Below the pieces are notes generated by a model. That model saw only the letters and a list, made by a program, of their open reading frames with translations, made no database searches and was not told where the DNA came from. From NCBI GenBank assembly GCA_963575745.1, contig CAUYUJ010001414.1:334270-398269 (forward strand): 64,000 bases of DNA, given 5' to 3'. Shown piece by piece: positions 13,979-22,800 of this stretch. The translations under genes and the position numbers were made by a program. This DNA is from Prorocentrum cordatum (lineage: Eukaryota; Sar; Dinophyceae; Prorocentrales; Prorocentraceae). Each line of letters begins with the position of its first letter. The stretch's first letter is position 1.

Positions 13979-14145
13979 AGAGGAGGAGGAGGAGGAGGAG
14001 GAGGAGGAGGAGGAGGAGGAGGAGGAGGCGGAGAGGGAGGAGGAGGAGCAGGAGAGGAGGAGGAGGAGGAGGAGGAAGAGGAGGAGGAGGAGGAGGAGGA
14101 GGAGGAGGAGGAGGAGGAGGAGGAGGAGGAGGAGGAGCAGGAGAG
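13979..14145. repeat. (GAG)n microsatellite
   Basis: GAG tract about 90 bp upstream of the ATG at 14237. Confidence 0.95.
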
Positions 14146-15175: not shown

Positions 15176-15517
15176 GTGGCGCTTAGCTGCATTCTTGGTG
15201 CGCCCAGTGCATCCGTTCTTATGCCCCCATGCGCCATTCCTTGCGCCCCGCGTCGTCCGTTGGGTTGCGCTTCTCGTCATGGCTGCTGGCGCCCCCATGT
15301 ATGTTGGGGTTGCGCTTCCCGTCTAAGGTCCTGGTTTCATGTGCCACTCGATCCTTCGGGCGAGTGCAGTGTTGCCAGGTCTTGCGGGCGAGATTCGGCT
15401 GCGTCTCTCGTGCGCGTCGCTGCTCTCCTCGTCCCCCGCTACACTTGCCGCCATTCTCACCGCTGACGCATGCATGCGTGGACACCTCAGACGTTAACCC
15501 TCAGGGCTGTGGGAAGA

Positions 15518-15533
15518 AGCAGGAGAGGAGGAG
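15518..15533. repeat. LINE target-site duplication, 3' side
   Basis: AGCAGGAGAGGAGGAG, identical to 21805-21820. Confidence 0.92.
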
Positions 15534-15597
15534 TAATTCTAATTCTAATTCTATCTGAAGCGTCATCCTCCTCTAGGGAGGTCGCTTAAACACCAAC
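15534..15597 (-). other. LINE 3' UTR and (GAATTA)3 tail
   Basis: Only ~60 nt separate the last stop from the end. It contains a small hairpin (CCTCC-CTAGA-GGAGG) and ends GATAGAATTAGAATTAGAATTA. Short terminal repeats in place of poly(A) are known in several LINE clades. Confidence 0.85.
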
Positions 15598-16420
15598 TCA
15601 CACATCAGGGAAACGGGTGCCCGACTTCGGGGGAAGCCCGCGGGAGATCCTCGACAAAACCTCCTTCCCAGTGGACGAGGGCCGATCACAAGCCCTGCTC
15701 AGAATGCGAGGGGGGTTCACTGTGCAAAAACCACCGCATGCCTCGCAAAACAAAACCCCTCGAAACGCGGCCAACCGATGCGTGGGCGAACAAAACTCCG
15801 ACATTGGGTGGTCCAGGGGTGTTCCACACCCCTGAACAGCAGCCAGATCATCAGGCGGCGGATCTTCCACCCCTGAGGCCTGGGCGACGCGAGGAGGAAG
15901 ACGCGGAATCCGCTGCTGCAGTTCACAGCGAGGCTTGCAGGGATCAGGCCAAAAATCCGCCAGCTTGCCCTTCAAAGGGAAGCCCCGCGCACATCGAGAA
16001 CACTTGAGAGACGCCGAACGCACCTCGGGAGAGTGACCACTATCGCGCAAGCGACACAACCTCTCAGCGCAACTGGTCTGTTGTCCGCGCTGCCGCCTAG
16101 GAACCCGTCCCGAAGTCTCACGACCTCCCGAGAAAAGCACCTCACGCTGGACCGCCAACAACCGCGACAAAACATCAAACGCAAGTTCGTCGGCCCGACG
16201 GGCTCGGTCAACAAAATCCTCGGGGATCTGGGCCCTGTCAGCAGCAGCATCGGCAAAGAAATCAGCAGCCTTGTTCAAATACACTTCTACATCACTCATG
16301 AACATATTTTGGCGTTGGGCCTGGGTCGAATGCGATTTCGTCCACAACACTTGGATAGATACCCCTCTAGCGAACATGACATCATGAAATTGCACCCAAA
16401 GATCCAGCATCGAAGACCCA
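15598..16420 (-). pseudogene. LINE RNase H C-terminal half and Cys-rich tail
   Basis: Continues the frame of the upstream ORF after an in-frame TAA (16423-16425). It starts with the last RNase H strands: LWTKSHST and NKAADFFADAAAD carry the His and final Asp. A Cys-rich tail follows, with CSRCARGF and HRLAAFRGVLFCEACGGF, a His/Cys pattern that may bind zinc and ends the polyprotein about 60 nt before the element end. Confidence 0.8.
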
Positions 16421-16422
16421 CG

Positions 16423-17658
16423 TTAGTCACGCAAGGGGCGACGTGACCCTGGAACTACCCGCAAATAATCACAGTACACGCGACAATGCCCCGTAGTACG
16501 ACGTGCCAGCATAATGAGAGCAAACAACTCCGCACAAGGAGAGGGCTGCTTCTTGGTAGGGAGGGTGCCCATGAGGAGGGAGTCGAAGAGGCCAGATGAA
16601 CCTAAGTGGACACACGCCCAGCCACAGCGGCGAAGCCGCCAGTCCTTAGTGAACTTCCCCCCAGATCCATCTATTCCCCACACTCCTCCATCGATCACAC
16701 CTCCTCCGATCAGTCGGCCCCACTCCCACACCTGCGAAACAGGCGGAGGCAAATGGCCACACGTGAGGGCCTTCGGGACCAAGCCTCGAAACCACAAACA
16801 CGAAAGCTCAGGCTCCGCTAAAACCCGATCGCGCAAACAATCGGTGCGATCCAAGACCGCATCAGGCACAGGCCGATTGCAGGAGCAGTCCCAAAAGCGA
16901 TGGAAAGGGGTCTCTGCTGAGGCCCCGCAGCGTGCACAGGTTCCACCTGAACTCGAGCGGTATCCCGCATCGTAAAGTCTGGACTCCGTCCAGTAGCCAC
17001 CAGCGACAAGATTACGCACCATTCCTGCAGCCTCCGCCTCACCATTCCTTTCCTGATGACGTAACATACGATACAGCACAGTAAAATCAACTCCTCCTTC
17101 CACCCCTGTACCCATATAATGACCCGCTGCCGCTTGCCACGAAAGCGACTGGCATGCATCAAACAAAAGGTCCCAAAGATGGGCAGGGAAATCTGCATCA
17201 GTCACCCGCAATGTAACTGTACCAACACGCCAGCAGACTGGAGGAACAGGATCCCATCGCAAATCAAGTAGCACCGCAAGCGTAGCCGCAATCGGACCTC
17301 GCACGACTTGCCAACGGTACTGAGTGCACTCGAATTTAGCCAACACCTGCTTCCACACACGGGCCACACGCATACGTTGTTTATGTTCCATCCCACTCCA
17401 CGCTGACGCAAAGGCATTGAGTTGTTCGTACCGCAACCTAAACTGGGGGTCATCCTTAGCAGGGCTAACCAAACTCAGAACGGTAGTCGTACAGGACCCA
17501 GGACGCCACCAACCAGAACACGTAGCGGCCTGACTCTTCATGCTTTGGACCTGCGACGGCGAAAGACCCAAAACTTCATGGCCCCAGGATCCAACCGCCA
17601 ACACCGCAGGCTTATAGAGCTTCCTAGCTCTGCCGACTAAACGAGTCAGACACCTCAC
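16423..17658 (-). pseudogene. LINE post-RT region: Cys-rich motif and RNase H N-terminal half
   Basis: 411 codons in the -1 frame relative to the RT ORF; the first codon is GTG, so it is a continuation and not an independent gene. CARCGASAETPFHRFWDCSC resembles the zinc-binding segment that follows RT in many LINEs. RNase H begins near GVWGIDGSGG (first Asp), with CAELFALIML (Glu) and YCDYL (third Asp). The TAA after PLRD cuts the domain before its last catalytic residue, so this copy cannot make complete RNase H without readthrough. Confidence 0.82.
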
Positions 17659-18704
17659 TTCGCAGCTTTCTTATACGCAACGGCACGTCGCTGTCTCAAC
17701 TTACTCACACAACGTCGACGCCCTGCAGTAGTCATGACCCCCAGGTCGCGCACCGCTTCCCCAACTCGAATAGGAAGCTGTGCAGCGCGGAAACAACCCT
17801 CAAGATGATCTTGCAAAGCTCGATCTGAACACACGAAAGTACTCTTACTGGAAATTGTAGTGCCAGCTTGCTCAAGCTGATGACTCAAATGAACTGCGGC
17901 TGGCACGATGCGCGAGACAATATCACTCCAAGAACCCTGCTGCGTCTGGGTAATGTCATCGACGTACGCCAGAGTGACAACAGGAACATACTGGGCGTGT
18001 GCGAAATCCAACAGATCGTACAAGTAGATTTTAACCCAAGGCATAGATTGCACACACCCAGGAAGCACCCCACAACCAGTGGGCATCACGTCGGACACGA
18101 AGCCGTTGACCTCCAAAATACGCGGGGCCTCATGCATCAAGATACCTAAATACAGCAAGTGAACGGGATAAGACATCTGCAAGGCGAATCCAGCCAGGCG
18201 GAGAGGGTCCACCGTATCAAAAAACTTACTGAGGCCCCAGTACAGCCCAACCGAAAGCTCCCCAAGATATCTAGCAGTCTCATGGCCGATCTCTCGCAAC
18301 AGCGCGGCCTGCAACGCCGAAGAGCCCCTAGCCGCGGTACCCCAAAAGTTTTCACGCTCCCGAGACCACTCATCAATGTCACGGCCTCGCGCACGACAAT
18401 AGACCCGATGCAACGACGGGCATTTGCAAACAGGGCGCTCCGCATCAGCCGCCTTAGGTAACAGAGCGATGATACCCATCATCACCTGCGTGGGCCACAT
18501 CATACAAGATTCGCACTGATTGAGGAGATCCGCGTAGGCCCCAACAGCAGCCCCAGGGAGGGACGCCACAATCCGCGGAGGCCAACAGTCAATGCCCACA
18601 GCAGTGTCAGCCTTGAACATCCGCGCAGCTCTGGACACCGCGCAGGGGGTCAACGGCTCGAGATCACCAACGGCCGCCAGAGCCATACGGCGAACCACAT
18701 CCAA
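17655..18704 (-). pseudogene. LINE reverse transcriptase
   Basis: 349 codons. The catalytic LAYVDD box is at 17955-17966. Motif A reads WGLSKFFDTVDP; the aspartate usually found where this G stands (D-L-S-K-x-F-D) is missing, so the enzyme should be inactive. Motif B is altered too: GVLPGCVQS in place of the usual P-Q-G-x-x-L/P-S. The TAVGIDCWPPRI segment is a normal fingers motif. Polymerises cDNA from nicked target DNA in active relatives. The first codons sit in a frame shifted from the linker upstream. Confidence 0.88.
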
Positions 18705-18720
18705 AACTCCCGAGAGGGCC

Positions 18721-19360
18721 TCACGCTGCTCCAGGAGCAGTCCAAAATGCGCTCCAAAAGTCCTGCCGATACTGCATCATTTCCTCGGGCAATTGCTTCA
18801 CCTTCGAGGGAGTAACCAAATGCTCGAGGTCAGCCCCCTGATCATATTTGAGCCAAGAGTGAACCCTCTTGGCACCACGCGGCAAGGCCTTAAGAAGCCA
18901 CTGCTTCATCTTCTCCTTAGACAGAGCGCGAGCCTCATTCCAAGCCTGGCCGACCGCGTGAGCGACCGCATCACTAAGAATATTCAGTCCATCGACCGAC
19001 GACGGGACGGCGGCCAGCTGAGCTATCCACCACTCGACGGGGCGCACAAGCCCAGGGAGGCAATGCGCGTGGACTTGACCCGACAAAACGTGCAACACAC
19101 GACCAGCCCAATGCATATTATCCCAAGACTTCCGAGCCTTACACAGACGATACCCCCACAAGGTCTGAGAAACATGAGCCCAGAAACACAGCGTAGGGGA
19201 TTGGAAACTCTGACCACAGAAACCTCTACGTCCAATCTTGGCACGTCGAAAACTCGGGTAACCTCCACGCACACTACTCTCGCAAGGCAACAACTGCATC
19301 GCACAAGCGCGAGAGAGAAACATCAATTCGGTAGCTCGGCTCCAAATACGGTGCTGACGA
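18721..19360 (-). pseudogene. LINE endonuclease-RT linker
   Basis: About 200 codons joining endonuclease and RT; no named domain. It includes DFWSAFW, a Trp-rich end typical of the region before RT. It follows the endonuclease frame through a CT-repeat slip near 19360 and is left by a +1 shift near 18745. Confidence 0.65.
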
Positions 19361-20270
19361 GAGAGAGAGCAGGAGAAATATGATCATGAACACGGGGTAA
19401 GAAGTTATCTTCAAAATAAAACGGAACCTCCAAGTCACCATCGTCTGACACCTGCGCCAACCAAACTTCCCAGGGTAAATCAGGACCAGCACAATCAGGA
19501 AAAGGAGGAGGTTTGACACGCTTCCACAACGTCTGTTCAACCGCCCCATGGTCCAACGAAACCTTCAAACACGCATGTGTCTTAAATGGTGACGGTGTAT
19601 ACTTAGATACTCGCACGTAGCTGGCAATATCCTCCGAAGCGACCACGTAATCGATCAGGGAGCCGCGCCCCTGCGTGCAGGTGAACTCCACCAGCGACGG
19701 GACCAGCACTCGCCCTCGCGCAAGTCGTGGGAAGCCCGAAAGATCGAGATCACCAGCTGAGACATTGAAATCGCCCATCAAAATCCACGGAACCGACGAC
19801 GTTCCCAGAAACTCCGAGACACCTCGCAATCTGTTCACATTCTCTCCACAGACTCCCAGGCCCGACACCAAATAAACAACGCCCACAGCGATCACCGCTT
19901 TTTTGGTGCGTAACTCAAGGAACATCCAATGGCTTCCAGAGCCATGGTCCTGCACTGGACCGTCTAAATGCAAAAAACGTTGAAACGACAATCCCCGAGA
20001 CACTACGGCCCCCACCCCACCATGGGTTCCACCCCCTGGGGAGGGCGTAGCAGGAATGAAATGGGGTCGCCATTTCAGCTGGTGCGCTCGCCTCTTCGCC
20101 AGTTTCACCCGATCACAATCCAGGTGATGCTCGGCGAAGAAGAAACCGTCACAACTGGCTCGCACGCTGGAAGCGAACGAGACGGCAACCTCGTTCCACG
20201 AGGTGATATTACAGAAAAGGAAATCGATACTGGTGGCCGCCTCGCGACCACCAGTGTGCCTGTTAAAAAC
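19361..20270 (-). pseudogene. LINE AP-type endonuclease
   Basis: Endonuclease/exonuclease/phosphatase fold that nicks target DNA to prime reverse transcription. Visible motifs: FCNITSWN (Asn), FFAEHH (Glu), GGVGAVVS, WILMGDFNVS (Asp-x-Asn), SLIDYVVAS (Asp) and a terminal THACL (His). It follows ORF1 in the -1 frame; there is no ATG at its start, so in intact relatives it is probably fused to ORF1 or reached by frameshifting. Confidence 0.85.
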
Positions 20271-21601
20271 GGGCTTGCGCAACAGGGGGCCTCACCATCA
20301 GCAGCCGCCGCCGCCTCACGTAGTCCGTCGTCGACACCATCTGCAGGGACAGGGACTTGGGCCACGCCGCCGGCAGGGACCGCCTGCTGAAGCACTCTGC
20401 CAAAACTCGAGGCCGTGTCCTCGCGGATAGTTCGCAGCCGCTTGACCGCTTTGCAATTGGCGGACTTGACCAAGAGCTTCTCCATGCGATCCTGCTGTGT
20501 AGCTTCGAGGGGCCCTTCACGTGCCCGCTTGCGCAGAGACTCCAACTCATCACGCTGAGCATCACCATACTCTGAAGCCATCTCGGAATCGGCGTCGTCC
20601 TCCTTGACCGCGCTGACGTAGATCCGCTGGAGCTCCTGCCAGAACTCCAGCCGCTGACGATGCTCCGCACACCAGCGCGCCAGACCCTCTTCATCAAGCT
20701 GAGCCAGATTAGGAGGCTGAAGCACCGCCTGCGGCGCACCCGCGCCAGCCGCCACGCCGCCATCCACGCCAGCGGCACGGGCGCCCACGGGGGCAGCAGG
20801 CGCAGCGCCTCCTCGACCGCCGCCGCCTGCGACAGGAGGAGCGCCCGCCGCGCCGCCAGCGCCACCGCCAGGAGCAACCCCAGCGCCGCCAGCAGCACCA
20901 GCGCCACGCGCCGCGCCAGCCGCCATAGCCGCCTGCGCTTCGTACAGAGCGCGAGCGGCCTCGCCTCGAACACGGTCCTCCCCCTCACGCTGTAGGCGTC
21001 GGAAGTCAGCCTCCACGAAGCCATCCTTCGCCAACGTAGCCTCACGCAGCAGGACCTGTTTGGCTTGCAGCACCTGCAGCGCCTCACGATGTTGCGTCTC
21101 AGCAGCATGAAGAGCTTCCCGATGGCGAACCACAGCCGCCAGCCGAGCTTCCACGTCGCCCTGAGCAATTCGTTCAGCTCGCGACTGCACCTCGACCTCC
21201 TTCGCCAGGGCAGTACGCTTCGCAGCCACGAGCTTCTCCATCTCGTTCTCAGTGGCAGGTTCAGGCGGGGGAGCAGGTGGCGCGCGCGGCTCCGCCGCGG
21301 CCGCCGCGCCAAGCTCCCCGAGCGCCCCTGCCAAGTGCGGGTACTTGGCCGCCAGCCACTCGAGATCGCCAGCAGCATCACGGCCACCAGCGTCCTTAGC
21401 AGCAGGCTCTCCGACGTCAAGATAGCAGCCGCCGCACTTACTGCAACTCCAGTTGCCATACTTGTCGAACTCCCAGTGCCCACAGGCACCGCACACTGAG
21501 TAGGTATCTCGACGCTGGGCTTCACGACCCCATGCGCCGCCGTAGCCACGCTTGCGACCTCCGCGCCCTTGGTGCCAGGGGGCACGCGACCGCCACGACA
21601 T
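20265..21601 (-). CDS. LINE ORF1: zinc ribbon plus coiled coil
   Basis: Starts at ATG 21601, ~180 nt after the spliced leader. Basic N-terminus, then a zinc ribbon CGACGHWEF...NWSCSKCG (Cys 37, 40, 53, 56). Residues ~125-220 form a coiled coil; ~235-290 is a Gly/Ala linker; a second helical region follows to ~400. Probably an RNA-binding gag-like part. The frame nominally runs on to 20105, but beyond about 20265 the homologous reading continues in the -1 frame as endonuclease, so the last ~53 residues are out-of-frame. Confidence 0.75.
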
Positions 21602-21783
21602 GACCTGCTAGCGGGGGCCCAACTCCCGCAGTGAAGGCCAACACACACTGAAGCGGGGGCCCAACTCCCGCGGATGAGGCCAGAAACAGGTGCAGGCGCC
21701 CAACTCCTGCAGTGAAGGCGAAGAACTCCGAGATCTGGCCGCGGACTAGCGGTATCCGTTTTGGCCCCAAGGGAACCAGGCAT
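21602..21783 (-). repeat. LINE 5' UTR with three ~42-bp tandem repeats
   Basis: Three imperfect copies (about 21611-21730) with core CGGGAGTTGGGC[G/C]CCCGC on the minus strand, each able to fold as a small hairpin. An ATG directly after the spliced leader (21783) opens a different frame and overlaps ORF1; it is probably an upstream ATG without a product. Confidence 0.8.
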
Positions 21784-21805
21784 CTTGAGCCAAAATGGCT
21801 ACGGA
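21784..21805 (-). other. Dinoflagellate spliced-leader (DinoSL) sequence
   Basis: The minus strand reads CCGTAGCCATTTTGG followed by CTCAAG, matching the conserved 22-nt DinoSL in full, with T at its variable first position. That T also overlaps the target duplication. DinoSL is added by trans-splicing to mRNA 5' ends, so its presence in genomic DNA marks a reverse-transcribed, trans-spliced RNA. Confidence 0.96.
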
Positions 21806-22800
21806 GCAGGAGAGGAGGAGGAGGAGGAGGAGGAGGAGGAGGAGCGGAGGAGGAGGAGGAGGAGGAGGAGGAGGAGGAGGAGGAGGAGGAGGAGGAGAGG
21901 AGGAGGAGGGGAGGAGGAGGAGGAGGAGGAGGAGGAGGAGGAGGAGGAGGAGGAGGAGGAGGGGAGGAGGAGGAGGAGGAGGAGAGGAGGAGGAGAGGAG
22001 GAGGAGGAGGAGGAGGAGGAGGAGGAGGAGGAGGAGGAGGAGGAGGAGGAGGAGGAGGAGGAGGAGGAGAGGAGGAGGAGGAGGAGGAGGAGGAGGAGGA
22101 GGAGGAGGAGGAGGAGGAGGAGGAGGAGGAGGAGGAGGAGGAGGAGGAGGAGGAGGAGGAGGAGGAGGAGAGGAGGAGGAGGAGGCGGAGGAGGAGAGGA
22201 GGAGGAGGAGGCAGGAGGAGGAGGAGGAGGAGGAGGAGGAGGAGGAGGAGGAGGAGGAGGAGGAGGAGGAGGAGGAGGAGGAGGAGGAGGAGGAGGAGGA
22301 GGAGGAGGAGGAGGAGGAGGAGGAGGAGGAGGAGGAGGAGGAGGAGGAGGAGGAGGAGGAGGAGGGAGGAGGAGGAGGAGGAGGAGGAGGAGGAGGAGGA
22401 GGAGGAGGAGGCGGAGGAGGAGAGGAGGAGGAGGAGGAGGAGGAGGAGGAGAGGAGGAGGAGGAGGAGGAGGAGGAGGAGGAGGAGGAGGAGGAGGGAGG
22501 AGGAGGAGGAGGAGGAGGAGGAGGAGGAGAGGAGGAGGAGAGGAGGAGGAGGAGGAGGGGAGGAGGAGGAGGAGGAGGAGGAGGAGGAGGAGGAGGAGGG
22601 AGGAGGAGGAGGAGGAGGAGGAGGAGGAGGAGGAGGAGGAGGAGGAGAGGGAGAGGGAGGAGGAGGAGGAGGAGGAGGAGCAGGAGAAACGCAACAAGCT
22701 CGGCCTGACTATCTGACCAACGTAAAATGGAGGAGGAGGAGGAAGAGGAGGAGGAGGAGGAAGAGGAAGAGGAAGAGGAAGAGGAGGAGGTTAGAGGGGA
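21806..22800. repeat. (GGA)n tract of ~1 kb, including LINE target duplication
   Basis: Almost pure GGA/GAG for about 980 bp, with the 5' side target duplication at 21805-21820. Every frame is open on both strands (poly-Glu, poly-Arg, poly-Gly / poly-Ser, poly-Leu, poly-Pro); none is a gene. Confidence 0.97.

Follow-up and report, generated by a model that had tools for sequence, protein, structure and literature searches.

The 64-kb stretch of Prorocentrum cordatum DNA analysed here (the window) carries on its minus strand, from 21804 to 15534, a 6,271-bp long interspersed nuclear element (LINE) that starts with the dinoflagellate spliced leader (DinoSL), ends with (GAATTA)3 and lies between exact 16-bp repeats. 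Judging from the sequences of this copy and its relatives, the replicating LINE RNA is very probably trans-spliced to the host DinoSL, and this repeatedly, in the manner of a host mRNA. The initial annotation had already read the element as a reinserted trans-spliced RNA, and this reading gained support from genomic copies starting at DinoSL, from target duplications and from a relict leader found on a LINE.

The borders given in that annotation were borne out by the sequence and by pattern search. The leader CCGTAGCCATTTTGGCTCAAG (21 nt, perfect, 21784-21804) forms the first bases of the element and is the single DinoSL match in the window at up to three mismatches, with none in 100 shuffles. 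The 3′ end reads GAATTAGAATTAGAATTA, i.e. (GAATTA)3, and CTCCTCCTCTCCTGCT is found at 21805-21820 and at 15518-15533, exact over 16 bp. The leader abuts the duplication, as had been claimed, with one ambiguity: the T ahead of CCGTAG can be either the final base of the repeat or base 1 of a 22-nt leader.

We take the element to be a LINE, i.e. a non-LTR (long terminal repeat) retrotransposon of the apurinic-endonuclease type. It contains an endonuclease domain above the Pfam cut-off, and its reverse transcriptase is recognised indirectly, by homology of the corresponding piece to L121, a copy of another family with an RVT_1 match above cut-off (tblastn E 1.4e-16 against 6 kb), and to the database protein P0001 (58 %), which matches RVT_1 below cut-off. 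Moreover, target duplications of variable length are indicated by the flank scores of relatives and by a copy in non-repeat DNA (L025, see below), and 5′ truncation with a shared 3′ end by five truncated copies, one of them bordered by N, and by the common GAATTA-type 3′ ends. The readable tail of the window element was present in 21 of 22 3′-end pieces inspected, all from outside the other bodies that follow UTR-A, a type of 5′ untranslated region (UTR) described below. No Pfam match to RNase H was obtained in the C-terminal pieces, which look RNase-H-like by eye only. Several reading frames of the window copy are interrupted; stop-free frames of more than 1,000 codons exist in six of the eight copies examined. 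The genomic DinoSL at the 5′ border and the ladders of relict leaders are features of DinoSL-tagged retrocopies, but the source is a LINE and not a host gene, and the duplications lie outside the leader, unlike those of a LINE inserted inside a spliced leader (SL) RNA gene.

Leader and target duplications across genomic copies

The search covered the 4.13-Gb assembly, and in a first look at relatives of the window element 25 of 1,549 candidates were scored. A query containing the leader returned 30 loci, each with DinoSL at its 5′ edge, a result biased by the query itself (L012 is partly masked). We also used a leader-free query made of the 194 UTR bases that follow the leader and considered the best 40 of 338 candidates. 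Thirteen of these places were already known (seven window-type and six B-type), all with the leader, L012 having three bases masked, and DinoSL was found upstream in all 27 newly fetched copies. Of these, 26 have a leader with 0-3 substitutions directly next to the UTR, and L114 has the leader followed by a 15-nt relict leader. The six B-type copies may represent four insertions, as L016/L017 and L018/L020 share identical 5′ flanks. The members of these pairs lie on the same contig, about 47 kb (L016/L017, C6025) and 6,149 bp (L018/L020, C17589) apart, and their flanks suggest duplication at the DNA level.

A pattern that fixes only two of the 21 leader bases matched 48 places genome-wide (reversed control: 2). 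The leader stands at 47 of them, free of substitutions at 35 and with 1-3 at 12; the one place without it is taken as a chance match. The UTR bases adjoining the leader are kept in 46 of these 47 places and in the window. Four of the five 5′-truncated copies inspected have readable junctions, and these are without leader. The 5′ ends, whose comparison had been proposed as a check, show many copies starting at DinoSL, with duplications where both flanks could be read, and no 5′-complete copy examined had a different conserved sequence where the leader is expected.

Regarding the duplications, the window repeat alone is moderate evidence, because it is CCT-like and can be reached by random draws. 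The 16-mer, partly (CCT)n-like, is seen a third time at 14047. Random pairs of positions share at least 16 exact bases in 953 of 200,000 draws (0.5 %) when the left side is CCT-rich and the right side is any, and in 13,431 of 200,000 (6.7 %) when both are CCT-rich. We therefore used the relatives for the duplication test, which comprised 15 of 18 examined copies; L002 and L007 are N-masked, and the 3′ end of L010 was not found at the expected place. The flank match score reached at least 15 in 14 of the 15 copies with both flanks, versus 30 % of 210 mispaired flank pairs, several of the 14 being periodic CCT matches and L006 scoring 0. Five copies (L001 in the window, L004, L005, L025 and L028) have duplications with letters beyond the plain CCT repeat. 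We consider L025 (= L082, contig C18369) the decisive one: the DNA around it is not repetitive, and GCCATCGGAGAGCACC flanks it as a 16-bp duplication outside the leader, followed by T and a leader with one T missing (1-nt deletion). Between the duplication and CCGTAG, eight T stand in L004 and GA in L005, as if these bases were untemplated or cap-derived at the 5′ junction.

The trypanosome LINEs SLACS and CZAR target SL RNA genes. By this precedent the leader could be target DNA, i.e. SL RNA genes, or DinoSL relicts of older date, could have been the insertion sites. We rejected this explanation and give it practically no weight, as the duplications end outside the leader, the non-repeat copy on C18369 contradicts it, and the flanks differ among copies while the leader is constant. 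The sequences show the leader as the 5′ border of the inserted DNA in several LINE families, with the duplications outside.

Relict leaders and the position of the junction

Dinoflagellate retrogenes tagged with DinoSL and tandem relicts are established (excerpts of PMC12014239 and of PMC6050394, the latter citing Slamovits & Keeling 2008). The copies described here resemble them: the retrocopied RNA begins with DinoSL in the genome, the 15-nt relict CCATTTTGGCTCAAG lies behind a new leader, and relicts occur in tandem. They differ in that host mRNA is copied there, by an enzyme that those excerpts leave open, whereas here we deal with an enzyme-encoding LINE, with target duplications and a CCT target.

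Genome-wide we counted 14,218 exact leaders, followed by a relict in 1,202 cases and by at least two relicts in 167 (reversed controls: 0); host retrocopies, and perhaps SL RNA genes, are counted in these totals. The proposed check for tandem relict leaders gave positive results on L047 and on further LINE-type 5′ ends. L047 has the leader plus a relict, and its downstream frame matches PF03372 (3.3e-08), so we read it as a LINE with a relict leader. The same arrangement was seen in L114 and L122-L124, four of the 40 places listed for a query designed to pick up relicts, whose list is ranked in their favour; the outer leader is perfect in all four and the relict is mutated in L114 only. L125, L127, L128 and L132 also carry the leader and one or more relicts, as called from the 5′ ends. 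In L132 (C20655, near 85700) the leader is followed by three relicts in a row, a ladder that implies at least four rounds of leader addition. By coordinates, C390 has leader, relict and UTR-C, and C9025 has the leader and two relicts, then a third before UTR-C with three letters unseen.

The same DinoSL stands ahead of unlike UTRs, families B, C and D having UTRs other than UTR-A. In turn, UTR-A copies (counted without L025) form at least four clusters by the DNA beyond the UTR, i.e. one 5′UTR precedes several unlike bodies. RVT_1 identifies L121, the body behind L089, as a LINE; L120, behind L114, has no Pfam match and only an endonuclease similarity (34 % over 62 residues, E 4.7e-08 against 6 kb). 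In family C the leader is usually joined to TTCGAAACC (109 exact places). In L027 the junction lies 38 nt downstream of the usual one, directly after GTCCGCAG, and this second junction occurs in 9 places versus 109. The eight besides L027, called by junction and not by body and partly from other UTR families, comprise four with a single leader, three with the leader and one relict, and one with the leader and three relicts. The annotation had also supposed that the family needs no conserved 5′ terminus of its own, which holds in part: the same UTR precedes unlike bodies, but copies of one UTR type have, apart from a few, their leader joined at a single base, and a short hairpin some 35 nt beyond this point is found again in different families.

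The relicts bear on an explanation in which a few source genes with ordinary acceptors produce all copies and the SL-bearing ones never serve as templates. Most copies do have a single leader, and host mRNA retrocopies are often dead on arrival according to the excerpt of PMC12014239. We still find this rather unlikely, as the leader-plus-relict copies show that some templates bore SL, and no leaderless UTR-A copy occurred among the 27 fetched of the 40 listed places or, bar the one chance match, among the 48 pattern places. The copies show that leader-bearing RNAs served as templates and that some of the templates already carried a leader.

Alternatively, these LINEs could owe the leader to a single capture and have since inherited it as a fixed 5′ end, acting as promoter or translation element without new trans-splicing. 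The leader and the 40 UTR bases after it have equally rare and equally private mutations, which is expected under inheritance, and relict DinoSL is proposed as a promoter for host retrogenes in the excerpt of PMC6050394. Moreover, 36 of the 40 listed UTR-A-type places have no relict, even though that list is ranked in favour of relicts. However, LINE-type copies with leader and relict, once with only the relict mutated, and a second junction after another AG make this explanation improbable, and the same DinoSL also heads host-gene copies (L068, WD40). Were transcription to start inside or after the relict, the adjoining UTR bases would be lost, and such a start is unlikely as the usual route for these LINEs because those bases are kept.

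Several points weigh against repeated trans-splicing. The ratio of private to shared variants is 8:1 for the leader, 8:2 for the 40 UTR bases behind it and 6:24 beyond these (33 of 34 UTR-A copies, the masked L012 left out), which does not discriminate between the explanations. The single-leader copies may have been copied from unseen sources, and L027 could also be a 38-nt deletion with AG at both ends. The first leader base is T in 7 of 28 readable window-family copies (L009-L038 without L025) versus 25 of 27 and 27 of 30 in the other groups (L089-L115 and L039-L068). An empty paralogue of the C18369 site was looked for, and none of the best 40 of 280 candidates was uninterrupted: both flanks were returned, overlapping by the 16-bp duplication, and the other 38 match the right flank only. 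Finally, the first 115 nt of the window 5′ end fold slightly less stably than shuffles (z 1.08).

Proposed cycle and comparison with known systems

In the cycle we propose for repeated trans-splicing, a genomic LINE copy would be transcribed, presumably from a start upstream of the relict, and the host spliceosome would splice DinoSL onto the 5′ end of the transcript at an AG. The LINE endonuclease and reverse transcriptase would then copy this RNA into a new site, from the GAATTA-repeat 3′ end through to the leader. The new site would often lie within or beside a (CCT)n tract, and this preference is probably that of the endonuclease, because truncated copies also adjoin CCT (three of four readable). 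The CCT tract could act as polypyrimidine tract and form the next acceptor with the terminal AG of the relict (CAAG); the tract upstream of the window element is a possible case. Splicing at the terminal CAAG would usually rebuild the same leader/UTR junction without growth, and splicing at the internal TAG of the relict would add one 15-nt relict. The 3′ flank of the window element (15490-15533) reads CTCCTCCTCTCCTGCTTCTTCCCACAG, from which the site before insertion seems to have resembled a polypyrimidine tract plus AG.

Each LINE jump must restore a complete 5′ end, normally a promoter too. The host leader would restore it from host parts and may remove the need for a promoter of the element. 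It is conceivable, at somewhat less than even chances, that these LINEs gave up their own promoter and 5′ terminus and integrate downstream of CCT tracts, the capped full-length 5′ end being rebuilt in each cycle by the CCT tract, the carried AG, host read-through transcription and trans-splicing, and that the same machinery is a main source of the SL-tagged retrocopies in this genome. A LINE-type enzyme would be a likely maker of dinoflagellate retrogenes, a matter that the excerpt of PMC6050394 leaves open while favouring LTR elements. The system also offers a test of relict leaders as promoters, and relict ladders could count rounds of retrotransposition.

In the accessible parts of the literature on DinoSL, spliced leaders and LINEs, with most subscription journals outside this scope, we found no report of a LINE starting with DinoSL. 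Such an element is expected in hindsight, because the hosts trans-splice their mRNAs, and would have real consequences for the upkeep of LINE 5′ ends. The trypanosomatid ingi/L1Tc elements with Pr77 are likewise LINEs of hosts that trans-splice mRNA, but they have their own promoter and an unspliced RNA (excerpt of PMC8190864). Site-specific and microsatellite-targeting non-LTR elements (excerpt of PMC4640811) share the preference for repeated DNA; they use a restriction-like endonuclease, in contrast to the PF03372 endonuclease and the host leader as 5′ end seen here. Non-host RNA with DinoSL is also known from DinoRNAV endogenous viral elements, where DinoSL lies within 500 bp of 6 of 26 integrated RNA-dependent RNA polymerase frames, but the excerpt of PMC10235124 concerns a virus, presumed to owe its integration to other elements, and not a self-copying retrotransposon. 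For two Symbiodinium assemblies, 496 and 244 putative DinoSL sequences were obtained by another method (excerpt of PMC8045281).

Layout of the window element and sampled leader loci

Table 1. Features of the window element and its insertion site, in window coordinates (ORF, open reading frame)
Feature	Position	Strand	Basis
(CCT)n tract immediately ahead of the element (read as GGA on the + strand)	21803..22686	-	tandem repeat row 21803-22686; target DNA
16-bp target duplication, upstream copy	21805..21820	-	exact match to 15518-15533
DinoSL	21784..21804	-	pattern search
5′UTR hairpin CCGC-TAGTCC-GCGG, common to other LINE-type 5′ ends	21739..21752	-	script over 5′ ends
ORF1-like frame, CxxC motifs read by eye	20105..21601	-	ORF list; tblastn relatives in 17/17 copies L022-L038
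Endonuclease, Exo_endo_phos PF03372	19323..20282	-	E 9.5e-07, above cut-off
ORF2 piece, endonuclease to reverse transcriptase	18721..19326	-	ORF list; no Pfam match above cut-off
Reverse transcriptase piece	17655..18704	-	no own Pfam match; similarity to L121 and P0001
C-terminal ORF2 pieces (16423-17658 and 15598-16410)	15598..17658	-	zf-RVT E 0.0077, below cut-off
3′ terminal (GAATTA)3	15534..15551	-	sequence
16-bp target duplication, downstream copy	15518..15533	-	exact match to 21805-21820

In the 5′UTR, a 4-bp hairpin with the loop TAGTCC, TGGTCC or TGAGCC recurs at a fixed distance after the leader across LINE-type 5′ ends: besides the window it is present in L030-L039, L043, L045, L047, L055, L061, L065 and L067. 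L025 (1-nt deletion) is left out of this count, and L052, with four pairs at 93 nt and without the motif letters, was set aside as chance. The stem variants CCGC/GCGG, CCTC/GAGG and CCCT/AGGG differ on both sides, and L037 breaks one pair. In L047 the hairpin lies at 50 nt, i.e. 35 plus its 15-nt relict. Rfam gave no 5′ ribozyme match, whether the whole window was scanned at gathering scores or the interval 21400-21830 with E allowed up to 1. In L001-L008, the frame from the ATG abutting the leader is stop-free for at least 509 codons in all eight copies, and it overlaps, in another phase, the ORF1-like frame of 431-500 codons.

Of the first 30 exact DinoSL places, taken in contig order, 14 have CCT-rich sequence in the 60 nt upstream, 7 have GGA-rich sequence there and 9 have neither. 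The LINE-type hairpin occurs in eight of the 30, at 34-35 nt (50 nt in L047), all in the CCT class, which suggests, the sample being small and not random, that a sizeable share of the leaders in the genome belongs to LINE 5′ ends. tblastn of the window proteins found no match at the 30 loci, where the 1.5 kb downstream seldom reaches the LINE endonuclease. Pfam, applied to one frame of each, gave WD40 in L068, KOW just above cut-off in L046 and matches below cut-off in L040 and L064, the other 26 having no family at E 0.01. L046, at a CCT site, and L068, without repeat, look like host-gene copies. DinoSL copies on the GGA side, in the orientation opposite to the window family, are L041, L048, L051, L053, L054, L056, L058, L126-L128 and L131, some of them with relicts.

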